The position numbers were made by a program, and so were the translations under genes. 64,000 nt of DNA, taken from contig NZ_VTAW01000001.1 in assembly GCF_008245225.1 (NCBI RefSeq), forward strand, positions 124,001 to 188,000. Direction: 5' to 3'. The notes beneath the pieces are model-generated. The model saw only the letters and a program-made list of their open reading frames with translations, made no database searches and was not told where the DNA came from. The stretch comes from Natrialba swarupiae (lineage in GTDB: Archaea; Halobacteriota; Halobacteria; Halobacteriales; Natrialbaceae). Of the stretch, positions 8,762-17,933 are shown in pieces (the stretch's first letter is position 1; each line of letters begins with the position of its first letter).

Positions 8762-10405
8762 CTACAGCTGTACTTCGTCGACGGCGTGAATCTCGTCGAT
8801 ATCTAGCAGGTCCTCGTACGTTTCCGGTGTGGGCTCCGTGTCGATTACGATCACCATGATCGCTTGACCACCGATCGTCTCCCGGCTGTTGTACATGCCG
8901 GCGATGTTGATACTGTGCCGGCTGAGGATCGATCCGACGTGGCCGATAACGCCTGGCTCGTCGCTCCCTTTAAACAGGAGCATGTGTGACTCGAGGGGAA
9001 CGTCGACGCGATGCTGTCCGATCCGAACGAGCGTCGGCGTCGAGTCTCCGAAGACGGTCCCGGCGACGACCTGCTCGTCGCCGTTTCCGGTCCGGCCCGT
9101 GATTTTTATCAGGGAAGTGAAATCGTAGTCGACGTTCGTCGACTGTTCGACGACCTGGACGTTCCGTTTCTCCATGAGCCGCGAGGCGTTGACGATGTTT
9201 ACCTGTCTGCCGAGGATCGGCGACAGATAGCCGGTCTGAACGGCCCTGGTGATCGGCTCAGTGTCTGCATCGGCGACCTCCCCGCTGTACGCGATCTCGA
9301 GTTCCTCGACGCGTTCGTCGACGATCTGGGTGAGCACCTGCCCCAGTTTCTCCGAGAGATCGACGTACGGGCGGATATGCTCGGATTCGAGTGACGGGGC
9401 GTTCAGTGCGGTCGACGCCATCTCGCCGTTCAACACGGCGAGCACCTGATCTGCGATCGTCGTCGCGACCCCCCGCTGGGCTTCCGTCGTCGACGCACCG
9501 AGATGGGGTGTCGTGAGTACGTCGTCTGACTGCACGAGGGGATTATCCGGATCGGGGGGCTCTCGTTCGAAGACGTCGATCGCTGCCCCGCCGATTTCGC
9601 CCGATTCGACGGCTGCCGCCAGTGCGTCTTCGTCGATAACGCCACCGCGAGAGGCGTTTACGACGTGTGTCGTCTCTTTCATCGCTTCGAACTCCGACGC
9701 ACCGAGCAGATGGTGCGTTTCGTCGGTGTGTGGCGTGTGAACCGTTATGAAGTCCGCTCGTTCGACGACGTCGTCGAACGAACAGAGCTCACCACCGACG
9801 CTTTCGACGGGTTCCGGGCCGACGAACGGATCGTACGCGACGATGTCCATGCCGAGTGCGTTCGCGCGTCTCGCGACTTCGCTGCCGATTCGACCGAACC
9901 CGACGACACCGAGCGTCTTTCCTCGGATCTCCGTTCCGACGTACTCCGATTTGTTCCAGTCTCCCTCTGAGAGGTCGCTATCCGCTTGCGAGACGTTTCG
10001 TGCACTCGCCAGCAAGAGCGTAAGCGCGTGCTCTGCCGCTGCGACCGTGTTCGCTTCGGGTGCGTTCGCGACGATGACGCCCGCGTCGGTTGCCGCCTCG
10101 ATATCGATGTTGTCGACGCCGACACCTGCTCGTCCGACGATCTTGAGGTTCCCCGCCGCATCGATAAGCGATGCCGAGACGTCGGTTCCGCTACGGACGA
10201 CCATCGCATCGTACTGGTCGATTACCTGGTGCAGTTCGTCCGACGATGCGTCGGTCCGAACGGTGACGGCACACGACTCTCTGAGTTGTTCGAGCCCTGC
10301 TTCTGCGATCGGATCGCAGATCAGAACCTGCGGTTGCTCCTGTGATCCCGCGAACTGATCGGTGACTGTGGGGTTTTCTCCCCCTGCCGGTTGATCAGAT
10401 TGCAT
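8762..10405 (-). CDS. serA: D-3-phosphoglycerate dehydrogenase
   Basis: A 547-residue protein for the first step of serine synthesis (3-phosphoglycerate to 3-phosphohydroxypyruvate, NAD+). An N-terminal tail of about 27 residues precedes QVLICDPIAEAGLE. The Rossmann motif is LGVVGFGRIGSEVARRA, and the catalytic Arg, Glu and His lie in NASRGGVIDEDAL, IDVFEREPPD and TPHLGAST. An intervening domain and a C-terminal ACT domain (MLLFKGSDEPGVIGHVGSIL) complete the long SerA type, which is often serine-regulated. It begins 7 nt after trpB ends, so the two are one operon. The context suggests that its serine feeds TrpB. The N-terminal tail is longer than usual and is the only oddity. Confidence 0.92.
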   Translation of the reverse strand: MQSDQPAGGENPTVTDQFAGSQEQPQVLICDPIAEAGLEQLRESCAVTVRTDASSDELHQVIDQYDAMVVRSGTDVSASLIDAAGNLKIVGRAGVGVDNIDIEAATDAGVIVANAPEANTVAAAEHALTLLLASARNVSQADSDLSEGDWNKSEYVGTEIRGKTLGVVGFGRIGSEVARRANALGMDIVAYDPFVGPEPVESVGGELCSFDDVVERADFITVHTPHTDETHHLLGASEFEAMKETTHVVNASRGGVIDEDALAAAVESGEIGGAAIDVFEREPPDPDNPLVQSDDVLTTPHLGASTTEAQRGVATTIADQVLAVLNGEMASTALNAPSLESEHIRPYVDLSEKLGQVLTQIVDERVEELEIAYSGEVADADTEPITRAVQTGYLSPILGRQVNIVNASRLMEKRNVQVVEQSTNVDYDFTSLIKITGRTGNGDEQVVAGTVFGDSTPTLVRIGQHRVDVPLESHMLLFKGSDEPGVIGHVGSILSRHSINIAGMYNSRETIGGQAIMVIVIDTEPTPETYEDLLDIDEIHAVDEVQL

Positions 10406-10412
10406 AACTGAA

Positions 10413-11582
10413 TTATGCCAGATACTCGTTGGCGATCTTTTCGACGTCTTTGTCGCCTCGTCCGCTCAGGTTCACGAGGAGGACGTCGTCCTCGTCCATA
10501 TCCTCGGCCACCTGCTTTGCAAGAGCGACGGCGTGACTCGACTCGAGGGCGGGGACGATACCCTCGTACTCACAGAGGTCCTGGAAGGCCTCGAGTGCGT
10601 CTTCGTCGACGACACCGTGGTACGAACATCGGTCGGTTTCGCTGTAGTTTGCGTGTTCCGGTCCGACACCGGGGTAGTCGAGTCCGGCAGCGACGGAGTG
10701 GACTTCGACGTCGTCGTCGATTACCCGGGTCCGCATTCCCTGATACACCTCTTCTTTTCCGCTCGAAAGCGGTGCGGCGTGCTGGCCGCTGTCGAGACCT
10801 TTCCCGGCCGCCTCTGCGCCGTGGAAATCGACCTCTTCGTCGTCGTAGAACGGGTGGAACAGTCCCATCGCGTTCGATCCGCCACCGACACAGGCAACGG
10901 CAGCATCCGGTAGCGCCCCCTCTTGCTCGAGGATCTGTTCCCGTGCTTCCTCGCCTATGACCGACTGGAAGTCACGGACCATCCGTGGCCACGGGTCCGG
11001 ACCGACGACCGATCCGACCAGATAATGGGTGTTGTCGAAGTTCTCGATTAAGTCTTCCAGGGCCGCATCGACCGCGTCCGCGAGTCCGGCACCGCCACGC
11101 GTGACCTCGTTGAGGGTTGCCCCCATCTGCTCCATCCGGAAGGCGTTCATCTGCTGGCGCTCGACGTCCTTTTTCCCCTGGTAGATCTCGGTTTCGAGGC
11201 CCGTGAGCGCACCGACGATCGCCGTCGCCGTTCCGTGTTGGCCGGCACCGGTCTCGGCGATCAGCCGTTCTTTCCCCGCGTGTTTCGCCATCAGCGCCTG
11301 GCCGAGCGCGTTGTTGAGTTTGTGTGCACCACCGTGCATCAGATCCTCTCGTTTGAGGTAGATTTTCGCCCCGTACTTTTCGGAGAGGCGTGATGCGTGG
11401 TAAAGCGGCGTTGGCCGTCCGGCGAAATCGCGAAGTAGTTCGTCTAGCTCCGCTTGAAATTCGTCATCGTCTTTGACACGGTCGTACTCGTCGGCGAGAT
11501 CCGCGAGCACATCCTCTAGCGGTTCTGGAACGTATCGTCCACCGAACTGCCCGAACGTCTGCTGGGAGTTATCAAGGGCCAT
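10413..11582 (-). CDS. trpB: Tryptophan synthase beta chain, stand-alone
   Basis: A 389-residue PLP enzyme joining indole and L-serine to make tryptophan. The PLP lysine is in [13 protein letters not shown], the catalytic Glu in [13 protein letters not shown], the phosphate loop is GGGSNAMG, and SGRGDKD closes the active site. Everything needed for catalysis is present, and the N-terminus ([20 protein letters not shown]) is of the TrpB1 type that pairs with TrpA. No trpA or other trp gene is in the window; the partner is serA. I start at the ATG at 11582 (MALDNSQQT) rather than the frame's upstream Met, because a strong TATA box sits 27 nt before it. It may be a second copy for indole salvage; that needs the rest of the genome. 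Confidence 0.92.
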
Positions 11583-11605
11583 AATATGACTCCATGTGCA
11601 TATCA

Positions 11606-11613
11606 TATATAAA
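11606..11613 (-). promoter_or_regulatory. TATA element of the trpB-serA operon
   Basis: TATATAAA on the plus strand reads TTTATATA on the minus strand, centred 27 nt before the trpB ATG at 11582. Transcription would start at or next to the start codon (leaderless). Confidence 0.6.
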
Positions 11614-12027
11614 TCTGCGTCAACATTGGTGGATCTTTACTTTCAACAGGGGCCAGAACTGTTCGTTGTTTACCGGAGTCCGGCAAAAGTTGACAACGAT
11701 CCTATATACTGCAGTGTCGGTACGTCAGGTGGGACGCTGCCACGTCGGACTCGTCGACGGGGGCCGCTTGAACGATCGGGCGCTCGCGAGAAGCCCACGC
11801 TGGCGGATCAGCAACGATCTCGTCGAATACTGCGCTTTGGGACGTACTCAACGGCGGAGTCGTTGCGGTCTTCACGCCCCTCGCCTGCACTGATGTATGA
11901 AACCGACGCCTACTGTGTGGGTTCGCTCACCAGACGACGATCGAGTTGTCACTGAGTAGTGGGTGCCTACTCGAGGGTAGTATTTCATCGTTCTGAGAAA
12001 TATAGGAAAGATTCCATATTACCCTGG

Positions 12028-12036
12028 GATATATTA
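12028..12036 (+). promoter_or_regulatory. TATA element of the amidase-like gene
   Basis: GATATATTA is centred 30 nt before the ATG at 12062, which fits a leaderless or near-leaderless transcript. AAGTTATAG at 12045 is too close to serve. Confidence 0.45.
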
Positions 12037-12061
12037 CGAATGCTAAGTTATAGCGGGACGC

Positions 12062-13150
12062 ATGTCACGGATCGAAAAATACATGGCTGTCGGCCTTTCG
12101 CCGACTGTCTGGGGCGCTGAAGAACGAAGCGACATTCAAAAGAATCTAGATCATATCCATGAAACTCTCTCGGCGGCGACGTGGTTGAGCGGTGTCGATC
12201 TCCCGGTCAAACTCGCGGTAATCCCCGAGGGGGGGCTCCAGGGGTTTACCGACGAAATAATGGATATGGATCACACCGAGTATCGCGAGAATATCGCGAT
12301 CGACATCCCCGGCGAAGAGACGGATACCCTCGGTGAGTACGCAAAGGAGTTCGATATCTACATCGTCGCCTCGGCCAAGGAGAAATCACCGGAGTACGAG
12401 GACAAGTTCGTCAACACTGCGTTCGTCATCGATCCGAACGGGGACGTCATCCTCAAACACCGGAAGAACACGCCCCTGCTCCCGGTCGAACGATCGGTAG
12501 CGCCCCACGACGTCTGGGACGACTGGGTCGAAGAAAACGGGAAGGATCTCGATTCGTTTTTCCCGGTCGTCGATACCGACATCGGGCGGATCGGCATCTC
12601 GCTCGCTATCGAGGGAGCGTACCCCGAATACGCCCGCGGCCTCGCTATGAACGGTGCCGAGGTCGTCTGTCGAATCGCGTGCCCCGAACCGCTCGTCGCG
12701 AACGAAGCCTGGGAGATCCAGAACAAGGCCCGGGCTCTCGACAACAGTATGTACGTCGTGGCTCCGAACCTCGGGACCTACTATCTGACGCCCGACACGG
12801 AGACGCCGGTCGACACGTTCGGCGGCGGATCGATGATCCTCAACCACAAAGGAAAGACGATCTCCGAACACGATTACGGCGGCGGCTCGTCGTACTGTGC
12901 CGGCGTCATCGACATCGAGGGACTTCGCGAGTTCCGGTACCGATCGCCGCTGATGAACTGGATGAAAGATCTCCGGACCGAACTCTGTGAGGTCGTGTAC
13001 GATCGCGAACTGTACCCCAAGAACCTCTGGCTCGATCGAACGCCGGTCAAACACGACGAATACGAGGAAGAAGTGACTGAAAAGCGAATCGAGGATATGG
13101 TCGAGAAAGACATCTGGGTGCCACCCTACTGGGAGCGGTCCGACGAATAG
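12062..13150 (+). CDS. Amidase-like nitrilase-superfamily protein lacking the catalytic cysteine
   Basis: A 362-residue carbon-nitrogen hydrolase-fold protein, most like aliphatic amidases (AmiE). The active-site Glu is E56 (AVIPEGGLQGF), the Lys K135 (LKHRKNTPLL) and the second Glu E143 (LPVERSV). At the nucleophile position, where AmiE reads LIICDDGNYPE, this protein reads SLAIEGAYPE: residue 182 is Ala (codon GCT, 12605-12607). The downstream block LAMNGAEVVCRIACPEP still follows the amidase pattern. Without the Cys the normal acyl-enzyme chemistry cannot occur, so it may be a binding or regulatory protein or use another chemistry. It leads a cluster with a LIV-type importer of the kind that serves amides, urea or branched amino acids, and is divergent from trpB-serA. 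Confidence 0.85.
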   Translation: MSRIEKYMAVGLSPTVWGAEERSDIQKNLDHIHETLSAATWLSGVDLPVKLAVIPEGGLQGFTDEIMDMDHTEYRENIAIDIPGEETDTLGEYAKEFDIYIVASAKEKSPEYEDKFVNTAFVIDPNGDVILKHRKNTPLLPVERSVAPHDVWDDWVEENGKDLDSFFPVVDTDIGRIGISLAIEGAYPEYARGLAMNGAEVVCRIACPEPLVANEAWEIQNKARALDNSMYVVAPNLGTYYLTPDTETPVDTFGGGSMILNHKGKTISEHDYGGGSSYCAGVIDIEGLREFRYRSPLMNWMKDLRTELCEVVYDRELYPKNLWLDRTPVKHDEYEEEVTEKRIEDMVEKDIWVPPYWERSDE

Positions 13151-13224
13151 CTGGGACAGTGTCGCGGGAACGATCGGTAATGACAATATACCGATAAAAT
13201 CTCCATTTTAGCTGAATGTAGGCG

Positions 13225-13281
13225 CTAAGCCCCCGTCCTCAAGGAGCCGCCACCAGCGGCGAGTAGGTAGGGGTAGTTCAC
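13225..13281 (+). mobile_element. Scar of an IS200/IS605 (IS1341-type) element end
   Basis: The stretch AAGCCCCCGTCC..GTAGGTAGGGGTAGTTCAC, with a GCCGC-CACCA-GCGGC hairpin at 13246-13260 and distant CCCC/GGGG pairing, matches from memory the right ends of haloarchaeal tnpB-carrying IS1341-type elements. The right end of such elements also encodes the guide (omega) RNA scaffold. No tnpB or tnpA remains nearby. It sits in the 341-nt gap between the amidase-like gene and the transporter genes, so an element probably inserted there and decayed. A second inverted repeat (ACCCGTGG 13351-13358, CCACGGGT 13371-13378) follows. Confidence 0.5.
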
Positions 13282-13491
13282 ACGAGGATCACGGCGCGAC
13301 AGATCCGCTCGGTGGATCAGCAGACTATCAATGTAAGTGACGTATTCGATACCCGTGGCTGACGACGTGACCACGGGTGACGAAATCAAGTCCTGTGTGC
13401 CAGGAGTTTTCACAGGCGTACATTTGTGTCGGTCAATGAGTCCATGGATTCGGTGAAGCTTTATTGATGATGGTGAGACTGTACCAATACA

Positions 13492-14643
13492 ATGGTTAAC
13501 AGGAGGCATGTAATCCAGGCGACAGCACTCGCCGGCGTCGGTACCATCGCCGGCTGTATGGGTGGGTTCGACGACGAATACCAGCGGACGATCGGAATGC
13601 CGACCCCACAGTCGGGTCCACTCGCCACCGACGGCGAGGCCGGACTCCGGGCATCGGACGTCGCAATCGCGGAGATCAACGAAGAACTGGACGAGGAAAT
13701 AACACTCGAGCAACAGGACGGTGAAGCGAACCCGGAGATCGCACTCGGCGTCGCACGTGATCTGAACGACGAGGGGGTGCCAGCCATTACGGGAACGTTC
13801 TCGAGTGACGTCTCGATGGCGCTCAGCGACTTCGCCGAGAACGAAGAGATACCGTTCATGACGGCCATCTCCGTCGATCCGGAAATCGTCGAGCCGGGCG
13901 ACGACTACACGTTCCGGATGACCGGAAACACGACACAGAAGCTACGAGGAATGTCGGAGTTTCTCGAGCAAGAGGACGTATCGGGGATCGGTGTCATCGC
14001 GGCTGACTACGCGATGGGGCGATCCGCAGTCGAATTCATGGAACAAGAGGCTGGCGACTACGGGATGGATCTGGTGTCCGACGCCGTCGTTCCGATGGCG
14101 ACCGACGATTTCACCCCGGAGCTACAGGGAATCGACACCGACGAGATAGACGCACTCTTTTGTCCGTTCCCCGGCGGGAACGGCCCGACGCTCGTCCGAC
14201 AGATGCGCGAGCAGGATATCTTCGAGGAGGTCGATATCGTGATCGGACACGACTCGTACGGAATGGAAGCCTACCGGGACGCGCTCGGCGATAATCTCGT
14301 CGATATGTACAACTGGGGGGTTGACCTCGAAAACGAGCGTGCCAGACAGGCATCCGAACGAATGCAAGAGGAGTTCGGCGTTCGCATGGACGCGCTTAGC
14401 CTCCCCAACTACGACGCGGTTCACATGTTGGCTCAGGTAATCGACGAGCAGGATTCGCTCGACCCACAGAGCGTCCGGGACGGTCTCGCGGAGATCGAGT
14501 ACGAATCGGCGTCGGGCTGGGACGTCAGCTTCGACGAGAACGGGGACAACGAGGCCTTCCAGATGATCGTTAGCAGATGGGAGCAAGATGGTGACGAGAT
14601 GAGAAACGTCGTCCAGTATACGAGCGACGTCGTCGAGCCGTAA
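13492..14643 (+). CDS. livK: LIV-type ABC transporter substrate-binding lipoprotein
   Basis: A 383-residue periplasmic-binding-type protein. MVNRRHVIQATALAGVGTIA with GC next gives a Tat signal and a lipobox Cys at residue 22, so it is a lipid-anchored receptor outside the membrane. The mature part follows the type I (Leu/Ile/Val) fold: IGMPTPQSGPLATDGEAGL, GVPAITGTFSSDVSMAL, GIGVIAADYAMGRSAVEF. This family also includes amide (AmiC) and urea (UrtA) receptors; the ligand is not readable. CTTTATT at 13459-13465 is a TATA-like element 30 nt upstream. It is the first of five transporter genes spaced 13 nt or less or overlapping. The symbol is by family only. Confidence 0.85.
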   Translation: MVNRRHVIQATALAGVGTIAGCMGGFDDEYQRTIGMPTPQSGPLATDGEAGLRASDVAIAEINEELDEEITLEQQDGEANPEIALGVARDLNDEGVPAITGTFSSDVSMALSDFAENEEIPFMTAISVDPEIVEPGDDYTFRMTGNTTQKLRGMSEFLEQEDVSGIGVIAADYAMGRSAVEFMEQEAGDYGMDLVSDAVVPMATDDFTPELQGIDTDEIDALFCPFPGGNGPTLVRQMREQDIFEEVDIVIGHDSYGMEAYRDALGDNLVDMYNWGVDLENERARQASERMQEEFGVRMDALSLPNYDAVHMLAQVIDEQDSLDPQSVRDGLAEIEYESASGWDVSFDENGDNEAFQMIVSRWEQDGDEMRNVVQYTSDVVEP

Positions 14644-14656
14644 CTACGAGACTTCC

Positions 14657-15376
14657 ATGAAGCAGGTACTAACGTTGGAAAATGTAACGAAGACGTTCGG
14701 TGGCATCGTCGCGCTCAGTGAGTTCGAGGGGTCCGTCGAGGAGGGCGAGATCACCGGACTTATCGGGCCAAACGGGGCGGGGAAGACGACACTGTTCAAC
14801 GTGATTACCGGGGTTCTCAGTCCCGATTCGGGCACGGTCCGCTTTCGAGGCGAGGACGTGACACAGGACAGTCCACATCGGATCTGCCGGAAAGGAATTG
14901 CACGAACGTTTCAGACACCCAAACCCATTGGTTCTCTGACAGTTGAAAAGAACCTGCGAGCAGCGTACCGGTTCGGCGAACCCGATCCAGCCGTCAGCGA
15001 AGAGGAACGGTACCAGCAGACGCTCGATCTCTTCGACCTCCGGGAGAACGAGGACGTCCGCGCCGAGAACCTACAGCTGATCGAACAGAAACACGTTGAC
15101 GTGGGCCGAGCGTTGATGTCCGACCCCGCGTTGTTGTTGCTCGACGAGATAATGGCAGGCCTCACGCCGACGGAGAAAGTCAACATGTGTGAGACGATCG
15201 AACGGATCAACAGCGAGTTCGACATTTCAGTACTGCTCATCGAACACGATCTGAAACGGATCCGGTCGATTTCGGACACGATCATCGCGATGAACGACGG
15301 ATCGCACCTGCTGACCGGCACCCCAACGGAGGTGTTAGCAAACGATGGACTCCGAGAAGCATACATCGGAACGTAA
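14657..15376 (+). CDS. livG: LIV-type ABC transporter ATPase LivG with a degenerate signature
   Basis: A 239-residue ATPase of the importer. Walker A (GPNGAGKTT, residues 37-45), Q-loop (TFQTPKPIG), Walker B (LLLLDEIMAGL) and the H-loop (LLIEHDLKRI) are intact. The ABC signature, normally LS[Y/G]GQ, reads LQLIEQ at residues 139-144 (from 15071), so the Ser and Gly that contact the partner's ATP are gone. In the LivG-LivF dimer this would impair the site made with LivF's Walker A and leave one good site, as in asymmetric ABC exporters. The gene starts 13 nt after the receptor gene and overlaps livF by 32 nt, which couples translation. Confidence 0.85.
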   Translation: MKQVLTLENVTKTFGGIVALSEFEGSVEEGEITGLIGPNGAGKTTLFNVITGVLSPDSGTVRFRGEDVTQDSPHRICRKGIARTFQTPKPIGSLTVEKNLRAAYRFGEPDPAVSEEERYQQTLDLFDLRENEDVRAENLQLIEQKHVDVGRALMSDPALLLLDEIMAGLTPTEKVNMCETIERINSEFDISVLLIEHDLKRIRSISDTIIAMNDGSHLLTGTPTEVLANDGLREAYIGT

Positions 15377-16082
15377 CGCCCTCGAGGCGAACGAGATCTC
15401 GGCCGGATACGGTGAAGCACAGGTGCTTCGAGATCTCTCTTTCGAGTTACAAGAGGGGGAAATACTGTCGATCGTCGGTCCGAACGGCGCTGGCAAGACG
15501 ACGCTGATGCGCGTTCTCATGGGATTGATCGGACCGACGAACGGATCCGTTCGGCTTTACGGCGATCAGATAACCGATTTACCGGCGCACGAACGTCTCG
15601 GTCACGGGTTGGCACTCGTTTCTGAGGAGCGAAACTTGTTCCGAGAGATGTCTGTGAAAGAAAATCTAGTGATGGGTTCGTACTCCGAACGTGGAAAGAA
15701 TCGAGGCGAACGACTCGAGCGCGTTTTCGATCTGTTCCCGCGCCTCGAGGAACGCCAGGACCAGCATGCGGGTACTCTCAGTGGTGGCGAGGCACAGATG
15801 CTCGCCATCGGGCGAAGTCTGATGACCGACATCCGAATTCTCATGCTCGACGAACCGTCGCTCGGACTCGCACCGAAGCTAGTGCCGGAACTGTTCGATA
15901 AGATACGGGAGATCAACGACGACGGAATATCGATCGTTCTCGTCGAACAACGCGCACAGGAGGCGTTACAGCTCGCGGATTCGGGCTGTCTTCTCGAGAA
16001 CGGGGCGATCGTTCACCGTGGTGCGGCGGCGGAGATGCTCGACGACGAGGACGTGATAGAAAAGTATCTCGGAGGTGCGTGA
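15345..16082 (+). CDS. livF: LIV-type ABC transporter ATPase LivF
   Basis: A 245-residue ATPase with a complete set of motifs: Walker A GPNGAGKTT near residue 46, signature TLSGGEAQMLAIGRSL, Walker B ILMLDEPSLGLAP and H-loop IVLVEQR. It is the partner of LivG and supplies the intact signature of the pair. The ATG at 15345 lies inside the end of livG. A later start near ALEANEISAGYG would remove a short hydrophilic tail but has no better ribosome-binding site. The 3' end contains the ribosome-binding site for livH. Confidence 0.88.
   Translation: MDSEKHTSERNALEANEISAGYGEAQVLRDLSFELQEGEILSIVGPNGAGKTTLMRVLMGLIGPTNGSVRLYGDQITDLPAHERLGHGLALVSEERNLFREMSVKENLVMGSYSERGKNRGERLERVFDLFPRLEERQDQHAGTLSGGEAQMLAIGRSLMTDIRILMLDEPSLGLAPKLVPELFDKIREINDDGISIVLVEQRAQEALQLADSGCLLENGAIVHRGAAAEMLDDEDVIEKYLGGA
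16071..16077 (+). promoter_or_regulatory. Ribosome-binding site deciding the livH start
   Basis: GGAGGTG lies inside the end of livF, 6 nt before the ATG at 16084. This favours that ATG over the in-frame GTG at 16075, which is itself part of the Shine-Dalgarno sequence. Confidence 0.7.
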
Positions 16083-16083
16083 G

Positions 16084-16956
16084 ATGGTCGTCTCGATCGA
16101 ACAGCTCGTGTTTATCGTCGGAAACGGGCTGATCTTCGGAAGTATCCTCGCTCTGGTTGCAGTCGGCCTCTCGCTGATCTTCGGCGTTCTCGACGTTCCG
16201 AACTTCGCCCAGGGTGAGTTTGCCAGCGTAACCGGGTTCGTGATCGTCGGACTGGTCGGGTTGGGTATCGGGCTGGTTCCGAGTATTATCGCGGGAATCG
16301 TCTTTGCCTTCGTCGCGGGCGTCGCAGTCGAGAGATTGGTGATCTCGAAGTTCTACGGCCGTGATGAGTTCCTCCTGTTGACGTTCTTCGCGACGTTCGG
16401 TATCACGATAATCTCGGAGAACGTCTTACGTCAGATGTTCGGCGGCTTTCGACAGATACCGGGCCCGGACATTGGAAGCATTGTCGTCGCGGGCACGTCG
16501 GTGAACTTGCTTCGTCCCGCTGCCGGCGCAATCGCAGTGGGGATGCTCATCGGACTCTACATCTTCACCCGTTACACGTACATGGGGTTGGCGATGCGTG
16601 CGGTCGCTGACGACCGCCGCGGTGCCGAGATGATCGGCGTAAACTACGAGCGCATCTACATGCTTACGTTCGGTATCGGAGCCGTCCTCACCGGCATATC
16701 GGGCGTTCTCTACGGAATGTTGTTCACCCTCTCGCCGACGTCGGGCGTCGCCCTGACGGCGTTCGCGTTTACGATCGTCGTCGTCGGTGGCGTCGGTAGT
16801 TTCTTCGGAACGATTCTCGCGAGTCTGTTGATCGGTCTCGTGGATAGCTTCACCGCGACGATGGTCGGCAGCAGGTGGCGATTCTTCGCGATCTTTGCCG
16901 TTCTGTTCATCGTACTGGTTCTCCGACCCGAGGGACTGCGAGGTGGTAGCACATGA
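16084..16956 (+). CDS. livH: LIV-type ABC transporter permease LivH
   Basis: A 290-residue membrane protein with about eight hydrophobic segments and the LivH pattern: SILALVAVGLSLIFGVLDVPNFAQGEF near the N-terminus (shown in part by GVLDVPNFAQGEF) and AVADDRRGAEMIGVNYERI as the EAA-type coupling loop that contacts the ATPases. The segment TIVVVGGVGSFFGTILASLL is the usual C-terminal signature. It starts 1 nt after livF and overlaps livM by 4 nt (ATGA), so the permeases are translationally coupled. Confidence 0.88.
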   Translation: MVVSIEQLVFIVGNGLIFGSILALVAVGLSLIFGVLDVPNFAQGEFASVTGFVIVGLVGLGIGLVPSIIAGIVFAFVAGVAVERLVISKFYGRDEFLLLTFFATFGITIISENVLRQMFGGFRQIPGPDIGSIVVAGTSVNLLRPAAGAIAVGMLIGLYIFTRYTYMGLAMRAVADDRRGAEMIGVNYERIYMLTFGIGAVLTGISGVLYGMLFTLSPTSGVALTAFAFTIVVVGGVGSFFGTILASLLIGLVDSFTATMVGSRWRFFAIFAVLFIVLVLRPEGLRGGST

Positions 16957-17933
16957 GTCGCTTCGAAATGCTCGAGCGAATGGTTGACAATCGGTTGTTC
17001 GACACGATCAAGGCACACCAGACGACGATCGGTGCCGTCGTCGTTGCGATCGCAGTGTTGATCCCGTTTTTGGTCCCCTCGGCGCTCCTATTCGACCTGA
17101 CGCTGGTTTTCATCTACGGGATGCTCGCTTTCTCTGCGATCCTCCCGATCGGGTACGCGGGTCAGTTGATCCTCGCACAGGGCGCGTTCTTCGGCGTCGG
17201 TGCGTACTCGTTCGTCAAGCTGACCGAGGCCGGTCTTCCGCCCGTCGTAGCGATTCTCGTCGCGACGGTGTTCACTGGGGTGGTGGCGTATCTCTTGGGG
17301 AAGCCCGCCACGCGGGCGAGTGGCATCTACCTCGGCATCATCACCCTGGCGTTCAACGAGCTGTTCGTCAACTTCCTCGAGCTGTTCCCCGACTTCACGG
17401 GTGGTAGTACGGGACTCTCCGCGCCCTCGCTGTTCCCCTCGGTTATGACCGGTATGATCCCGGGTGACGTCCTGTACTACTACCTCCTGTTGCTCGTCTA
17501 CATCGGGACGGTCGTTTTCTTTTACCGGTTACTTCACTCCGAGTTCGGCTGGGCGCTACTGACGATCAAGGAAGATCCCGTCCTGGCCGAGTCGATCGGG
17601 ATCGACGCACAGCGGTACCGCTTGCTCTCGTTTACGTCGGCTGGACTCATCTGTGGGCTTGCCGGAGGTCTCTTCGCACCGTTCAACGGCTACCTCTCTC
17701 CGCCGATGTTCGACTTACACCGCACGATCGACATCATTCTCGCCGGGGTCGCCGGCGGGTTGACCACGCCGATCGGTAGCATCTTCGGTGGGTTGATCGT
17801 CGTGCTCGTGCCGGAGGTCCTCCGCTTTATAGCCGAAATTAGACTAATTATCTACGGGGTATTGCTCATCCTGTTGTTGATGTACCTTCCCGAAGGGATC
17901 GGCGGCTGGCTCAGAGAGAAGTGGGAACAGTAG
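16953..17933 (+). CDS. livM: LIV-type ABC transporter permease LivM
   Basis: A 326-residue permease partner of LivH, with about nine hydrophobic segments. Diagnostic pieces are PIGYAGQLILAQGAFFGVGA, IYLGIITLAFNELF, and the coupling loop TIKEDPVLAESIGIDAQRYR. The end, LRFIAEIRLIIYGVLLILLL, is typical of LivM, the last permease gene of such operons. It closes the operon; no ATPase or enzyme gene follows on this strand before ahcY, 260 nt on. Confidence 0.88.
   Translation: MSRFEMLERMVDNRLFDTIKAHQTTIGAVVVAIAVLIPFLVPSALLFDLTLVFIYGMLAFSAILPIGYAGQLILAQGAFFGVGAYSFVKLTEAGLPPVVAILVATVFTGVVAYLLGKPATRASGIYLGIITLAFNELFVNFLELFPDFTGGSTGLSAPSLFPSVMTGMIPGDVLYYYLLLLVYIGTVVFFYRLLHSEFGWALLTIKEDPVLAESIGIDAQRYRLLSFTSAGLICGLAGGLFAPFNGYLSPPMFDLHRTIDIILAGVAGGLTTPIGSIFGGLIVVLVPEVLRFIAEIRLIIYGVLLILLLMYLPEGIGGWLREKWEQ

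Follow-up and report, generated by a model that had tools for sequence, protein, structure and literature searches.

The accepted hallmark of the nitrilase superfamily is a Glu-Lys-Cys triad, and its thioester route cannot run without the cysteine; laboratory Cys-to-Ala mutants are used to keep substrates unconverted. The best solved relatives of the protein described here are formamidases and aliphatic amidases, such as AmiF and AmiE, with which it shares a common fold over residues 3-307 (Z 29-31) and equivalents of Glu56, Lys135, and Glu143, but from which it differs in having Ala in place of the nucleophilic Cys, H133 in place of Tyr, and an identity of only about 25-30%. A nitrilase fold also occurs in phage-related biology in the phage-defence reverse transcriptase DRT1, where a nitrilase domain is fused to RT and the catalytic Cys, C1116, is kept (PMC13275509). 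The proteins considered below likewise bring this fold into phage-related biology but are without the Cys, whereas DRT1 has both C1116 and the RT fusion.

The window protein and its predicted structure

The gene is located at 12062..13150 on the plus strand of the window, the 64,000-nucleotide stretch of Natrialba swarupiae DNA that was analyzed (contig NZ_VTAW01000001.1, positions 124,001 to 188,000), and encodes a protein of 362 amino acids whose frame is open throughout, bearing out the expectation that the rest of the gene was intact. CN_hydrolase is the only Pfam family found in the product (E 2.3e-29), and this domain, with its alpha-beta-beta-alpha amidase fold, makes the protein a member of the nitrilase superfamily by fold. 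Its scores fall below the NCBIfam curated cut-offs for both the formamidase equivalog (83.7 bits against 406) and the aliphatic amidase equivalog (52.3 bits against 427). In a phmmer comparison with solved formamidases, RIGISLAIEGAYPE was aligned onto KLAVCICHDGMFPE, and the formamidase nucleophilic Cys, Glu, Lys, and second Glu were matched, all on the plus strand, by A182 (codon GCT, 12605..12607), E56 (the general-base Glu of the triad, 12227..12229), the catalytic K135 (12464..12466), and E143 (12488..12490), respectively. This agrees with the original prediction that alanine had replaced the nucleophile with the other three residues in place. A retained fold from which an indispensable catalytic residue is missing is the pattern of a ligand-binding pseudoenzyme; of the residues that mark a thiol enzyme, the triad Glu and Lys are present (26/26 each in the survey below) but the nucleophilic Cys is not.

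A structure model built from 18 aligned sequences (pLDDT 78, pTM 0.78) replaced an earlier five-sequence model (pLDDT 48), which was set aside; confidence is low for residues 137-152 and about 298-328, as it is for the C-terminal part (about 300-362). Foldseek and VIA-align placed the model nearest to formamidase and aliphatic amidase (Z about 31), with 249 residues superposed on 5G3O (Z 30.6, 2.4 Å) and 264 residues on 4LF0 (Z 30.8, 2.8 Å). The structural matches include laboratory Cys-to-Ala variants, namely 6YPA (C146A, glutaramide), 1UF4, and 8HPC (C171A, N-carbamyl-D-hydroxyphenylglycine). These have both the fold and the substitution of the window protein, but they are engineered single changes in active enzymes, whereas in the window protein the Ala arose in nature, is of long standing, and comes with further fixed changes. 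Since 6YPA and 8HPC are ligand complexes, the window protein naturally bears the substitution that laboratories use for such complexes. That same-fold Cys-to-Ala structures hold ligands favors a serious contender among the possible functions, in which the protein would be a non-catalytic binder of an amide-like small molecule, the natural counterpart of laboratory substrate traps, and would sense, buffer, or soak up its ligand inside the cell. The kept Glu and Lys residues, being substrate-holding, fit pure binding equally well, and substituting Ala for the active-site Cys of deubiquitinases, which belong to a different enzyme class, leads to higher substrate affinity (PMC6172466).

Conservation of Ala182 and the residues fixed with it

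A scan of genome contigs recovered relatives in Halostagnicola sp. A56 (92% identity), a Salinirussus MAG (74%), an Archaeoglobi MAG (L003, 70%), and a Hadesarchaea MAG (66%), and searches of related genomes and plasmids added further haloarchaeal relatives at 75-84%, together with plasmid-borne proteins of Tsukamurella (47%) and Flammeovirga (41%). A viral-contig search contributed eight phage-like contigs with relatives at about 46-51%. The intact members with Ala at the nucleophile position, hereafter the Ala-type proteins, number 26 and comprise 15 haloarchaeal proteins (window included), those of Archaeoglobi, Hadesarchaea, Tsukamurella, and Flammeovirga, and seven from phage contigs, the bacterial side being sampled through plasmid and viral collections only. 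They were aligned with 32 other superfamily members, drawn from the nearest Cys-bearing relatives (37-43% identity) and from ordinary haloarchaeal nitrilases and amidases. Across these 58 sequences, column 182 is Ala in 26 sequences, Cys in 31, and Ser in L042 alone, while E56 is present in 58/58 and K135 in 57/58. Ala182, E56, K135, and E143 occur together in every intact Ala-type member (26/26), a set spanning phages, bacteria of two phyla, and several archaeal groups, as had been anticipated for orthologues under selection. None of these searches turned up an orthologue that has Cys at 182; the nearest Cys-bearing relatives belong to a different subfamily. These sisters (L008, L047, L048, L049, L051, and L052), annotated as "nitrilase-related carbon-nitrogen hydrolase" and alignable over nearly their full length, share a PHD motif and the C-terminal KDLRTE region with the Ala-type proteins but have Cys at the nucleophile position and are without H133, Y74, and P208.

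All four alanine codons are used at position 182 (GCC 14, GCT 7, GCG 4, and GCA 1), and comparison of the window gene with its nearest orthologue, from Halostagnicola sp. A56, gave a dN of 0.05 against a dS of 1.48, which indicates that the nucleotide sequence has diverged but the residue has been preserved. It is thus established that a Cys-less branch of the amidase fold is conserved under purifying selection with its Glu-Lys-Glu residues retained. A local mutation or read error at codon 182 was rejected since the same Ala is common to 26 records, in line with the earlier argument that GCT, two changes away from TGT or TGC, could not reflect a single misread base. That the gene is decaying or a sequencing artefact, and functionless, is accordingly extremely improbable, and the survey of orthologues refutes it: among the phage copies, that of L088 is broken and the other seven are intact, but nothing of the kind applies to the window copy, and intact frames, purifying selection, and the shared Ala all stand against it.

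Several other residues accompany Ala182. Y74 and P208 are each present in 26/26 Ala-type proteins and 0/32 others; L139 is likewise invariant in the 26 and absent from the 32, and Q60 is invariant in the 26 and found in 5/32 others. H133 (12458..12460, plus strand) occurs in 26/26 Ala-type proteins against 1/32 others, of which 25/32 have Tyr. It precedes K135 by two positions on the strand of the catalytic Lys, and from strand alternation the two side chains are expected to point in the same direction. The fixation of H133, Y74, and P208 points to a site that has been rebuilt rather than one that is decaying. The new histidine also tells against the binder, as simple retention of an ancestral ligand needs no new invariant His beside the Lys.

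A further explanation is that another nucleophile has taken over, for example one of the conserved serines S145 and S257, or a Cys supplied by a partner subunit. Both serines are present in 26/26 Ala-type proteins, but S257 is found superfamily-wide (28/32 others) and S145 also in the nearest Cys-bearing relatives, such that neither is a group-specific replacement. The 26 Ala-type proteins have no conserved Cys column in common (C203 is found in 18/26, with Tyr in the rest); another Cys filling in within the active site is therefore unsupported by the sequences and was rejected. The genome encodes no active close paralogue; apart from the window gene, it has just two CN_hydrolase genes, both ordinary. 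Takeover by another nucleophile is, on this evidence, unlikely.

Variation at the nucleophile position was also seen in other members of the superfamily. One haloarchaeal genome contains two divergent nitrilase-like genes (L066:6893-7933 and 11622-12737, aligned as L042 and L043), with Ser in the nucleophile column of one and Cys in that of the other. Another protein with a CN_hydrolase domain, encoded on a viral contig (L095:207-977, Pfam E 2e-47), reads IGYD in place of the family ICYD, so that Gly occupies the nucleophile position; the Cys appears to have been lost independently in this case.

Distribution, genomic neighborhood, and phage carriage

The Ala-type gene is patchily distributed, with an orthologue in 10/391 sampled haloarchaeal genomes (own genome counted), 1/295 sampled genomes of the phylum of L003, and 1/28 of that of L004. 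Horizontal transfer probably accounts for this patchy spread among distant groups, given the 66-70% identity between distant archaeal groups. A single origin of the Ala type is allowed by the tree but not proved (AU p 0.46, with weak deep nodes), and the Tsukamurella and phage proteins form one group (support 98/96).

In the window, the gene is followed at 13492..17933 on the plus strand by a Liv/urea-type ABC transporter consisting of a substrate-binding protein, two ATPases, and two permeases. The original prediction made it the leading gene of a transporter operon, but between its stop codon and the start of the transporter genes there is a gap of 341 bp (13151-13491), and in most haloarchaea that have the Ala-type gene it is alone, with no adjoining transporter; a transporter operon as the general context was therefore rejected. 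The gene also has a related transporter near it in L057, where this is upstream and on the same strand, and in L053, where it is on the opposite strand; the substrate-binding proteins of these transporters share 56-63% identity with the one in the window. Archaeoglobi L003 has a distant substrate-binding protein (23%) divergent to the gene. The orthologous transporters in the window, L057, and L053 speak for the binder, whose ligand in some Natrialbaceae would perhaps be the solute of the neighboring transporter, but the solitary gene in most haloarchaea, and its carriage as phage cargo, speak against it.

On the minus strand, the window also contains second copies of serA (8762-10405) and trpB (10413-11606), each with one additional copy above the family cut-off elsewhere in the genome. 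The window trpB is 75% identical to the trpB beside the Natrinema orthologue and 48% identical to the other trpB of its own genome, and together the extra genes suggest a small accessory cluster around the gene in Natrialbaceae. The transporter and serA/trpB are best regarded as neighbors, and as putative partners at most. On Tsukamurella tyrosinosolvens plasmid 13 (L046), the Ala-type gene follows a cyclase-family gene in a stretch that also has indolepyruvate oxidoreductase, salicylyl-CoA 5-hydroxylase, and fumarylacetoacetate-hydrolase-type genes, neighbors that may point to the metabolism of aromatic compounds or indole.

Nitrilases are oligomeric, and two ordinary CN_hydrolase proteins are encoded in the genome, with which the Ala-type protein might assemble as a regulatory or structural subunit of a hetero-oligomer. 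No linked nitrilase gene was present in the orthologue neighborhoods read, however, and the phage contigs carry the Ala-type gene by itself, making this arrangement quite improbable.

In the eight IMG/VR contigs (L081-L088), which resemble Streptomyces phages, the gene lies between those for scaffold and portal, in reverse orientation to them (e.g., L081:5716-6759). A portal search yielded 21 related contigs, comprising these eight, six with a near-empty junction in which portal and scaffold are only 220-278 bp apart (L106, L108, L109, L113, L114, and L116), and seven with other or incomplete arrangements; in some relatives this portal/scaffold junction has different inserts. Because the junction is filled in eight contigs and near-empty in six relatives, the Ala-type gene is optional cargo, and the junction an insertion site. 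Named phages share DNA similarity with these contigs only in short stretches, all in Streptomyces phages, and no viral relatives of the Cys-type alignment were found. Membership of an anti-phage defence family was considered and rejected, as PADLOC gave no match for the window protein, the Tsukamurella protein, or the phage copies, with a marginal match for L050 (E 0.009).

Function of a Cys-less amidase fold

The absence of Cys, with Ala182 kept across the lineage, argues for a role other than the textbook thiol-based reaction. The original prediction of a kept, non-hydrolytic role is thus well supported insofar as a non-thiol function has been retained (A182 with the Glu and Lys residues in 26/26), although its operon argument does not hold. 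The favored explanation, to which a probability of roughly 0.4 is given, is that the Ala-type proteins form a selected, horizontally spread amidase-fold subfamily in which Ala stands in for the thiol nucleophile and non-covalent chemistry may be performed on an amide-like molecule. In such a mechanism, an amide- or ureide-like small molecule would enter the Glu-Lys-Glu pocket, where it would be acted on with no covalent intermediate: E56 would be the general base, activating either water or the substrate, K135 would hold the carbonyl or oxyanion, E143 would orient the ligand, and H133 might serve as a further acid/base. Such chemistry could amount to direct hydrolysis or to a lyase- or isomerase-type step.

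Judged from sequence and gene context, there is a slight lean towards catalysis over pure binding in the Ala-type proteins, based on the new invariant H133 and the stand-alone, mobile nature of the gene; a gene that is alone in most haloarchaea and optional cargo in phages suits a self-contained activity. Pure binding is nearly as likely, since the retained residues hold substrate and laboratory Cys-to-Ala mutants bind. The more specific proposal of a multi-phylum, phage-borne branch that has given up thiol catalysis and may carry out a non-covalent reaction by means of Glu56, Lys135, and the newly fixed His133 is put forward more tentatively than either, and we know of no case of non-covalent Glu/Lys/His catalysis in the nitrilase superfamily. 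No earlier description of a Cys-less branch was found in the open-access papers searched.

The Ala-type proteins are automatically annotated as carbon-nitrogen hydrolases, and the existence of a conserved Cys-less branch in archaea, bacteria, and phages renders this annotation unsafe. The branch also constitutes a natural test of what the fold does without its nucleophile, whether to bind, to sense, or to catalyze by other means.
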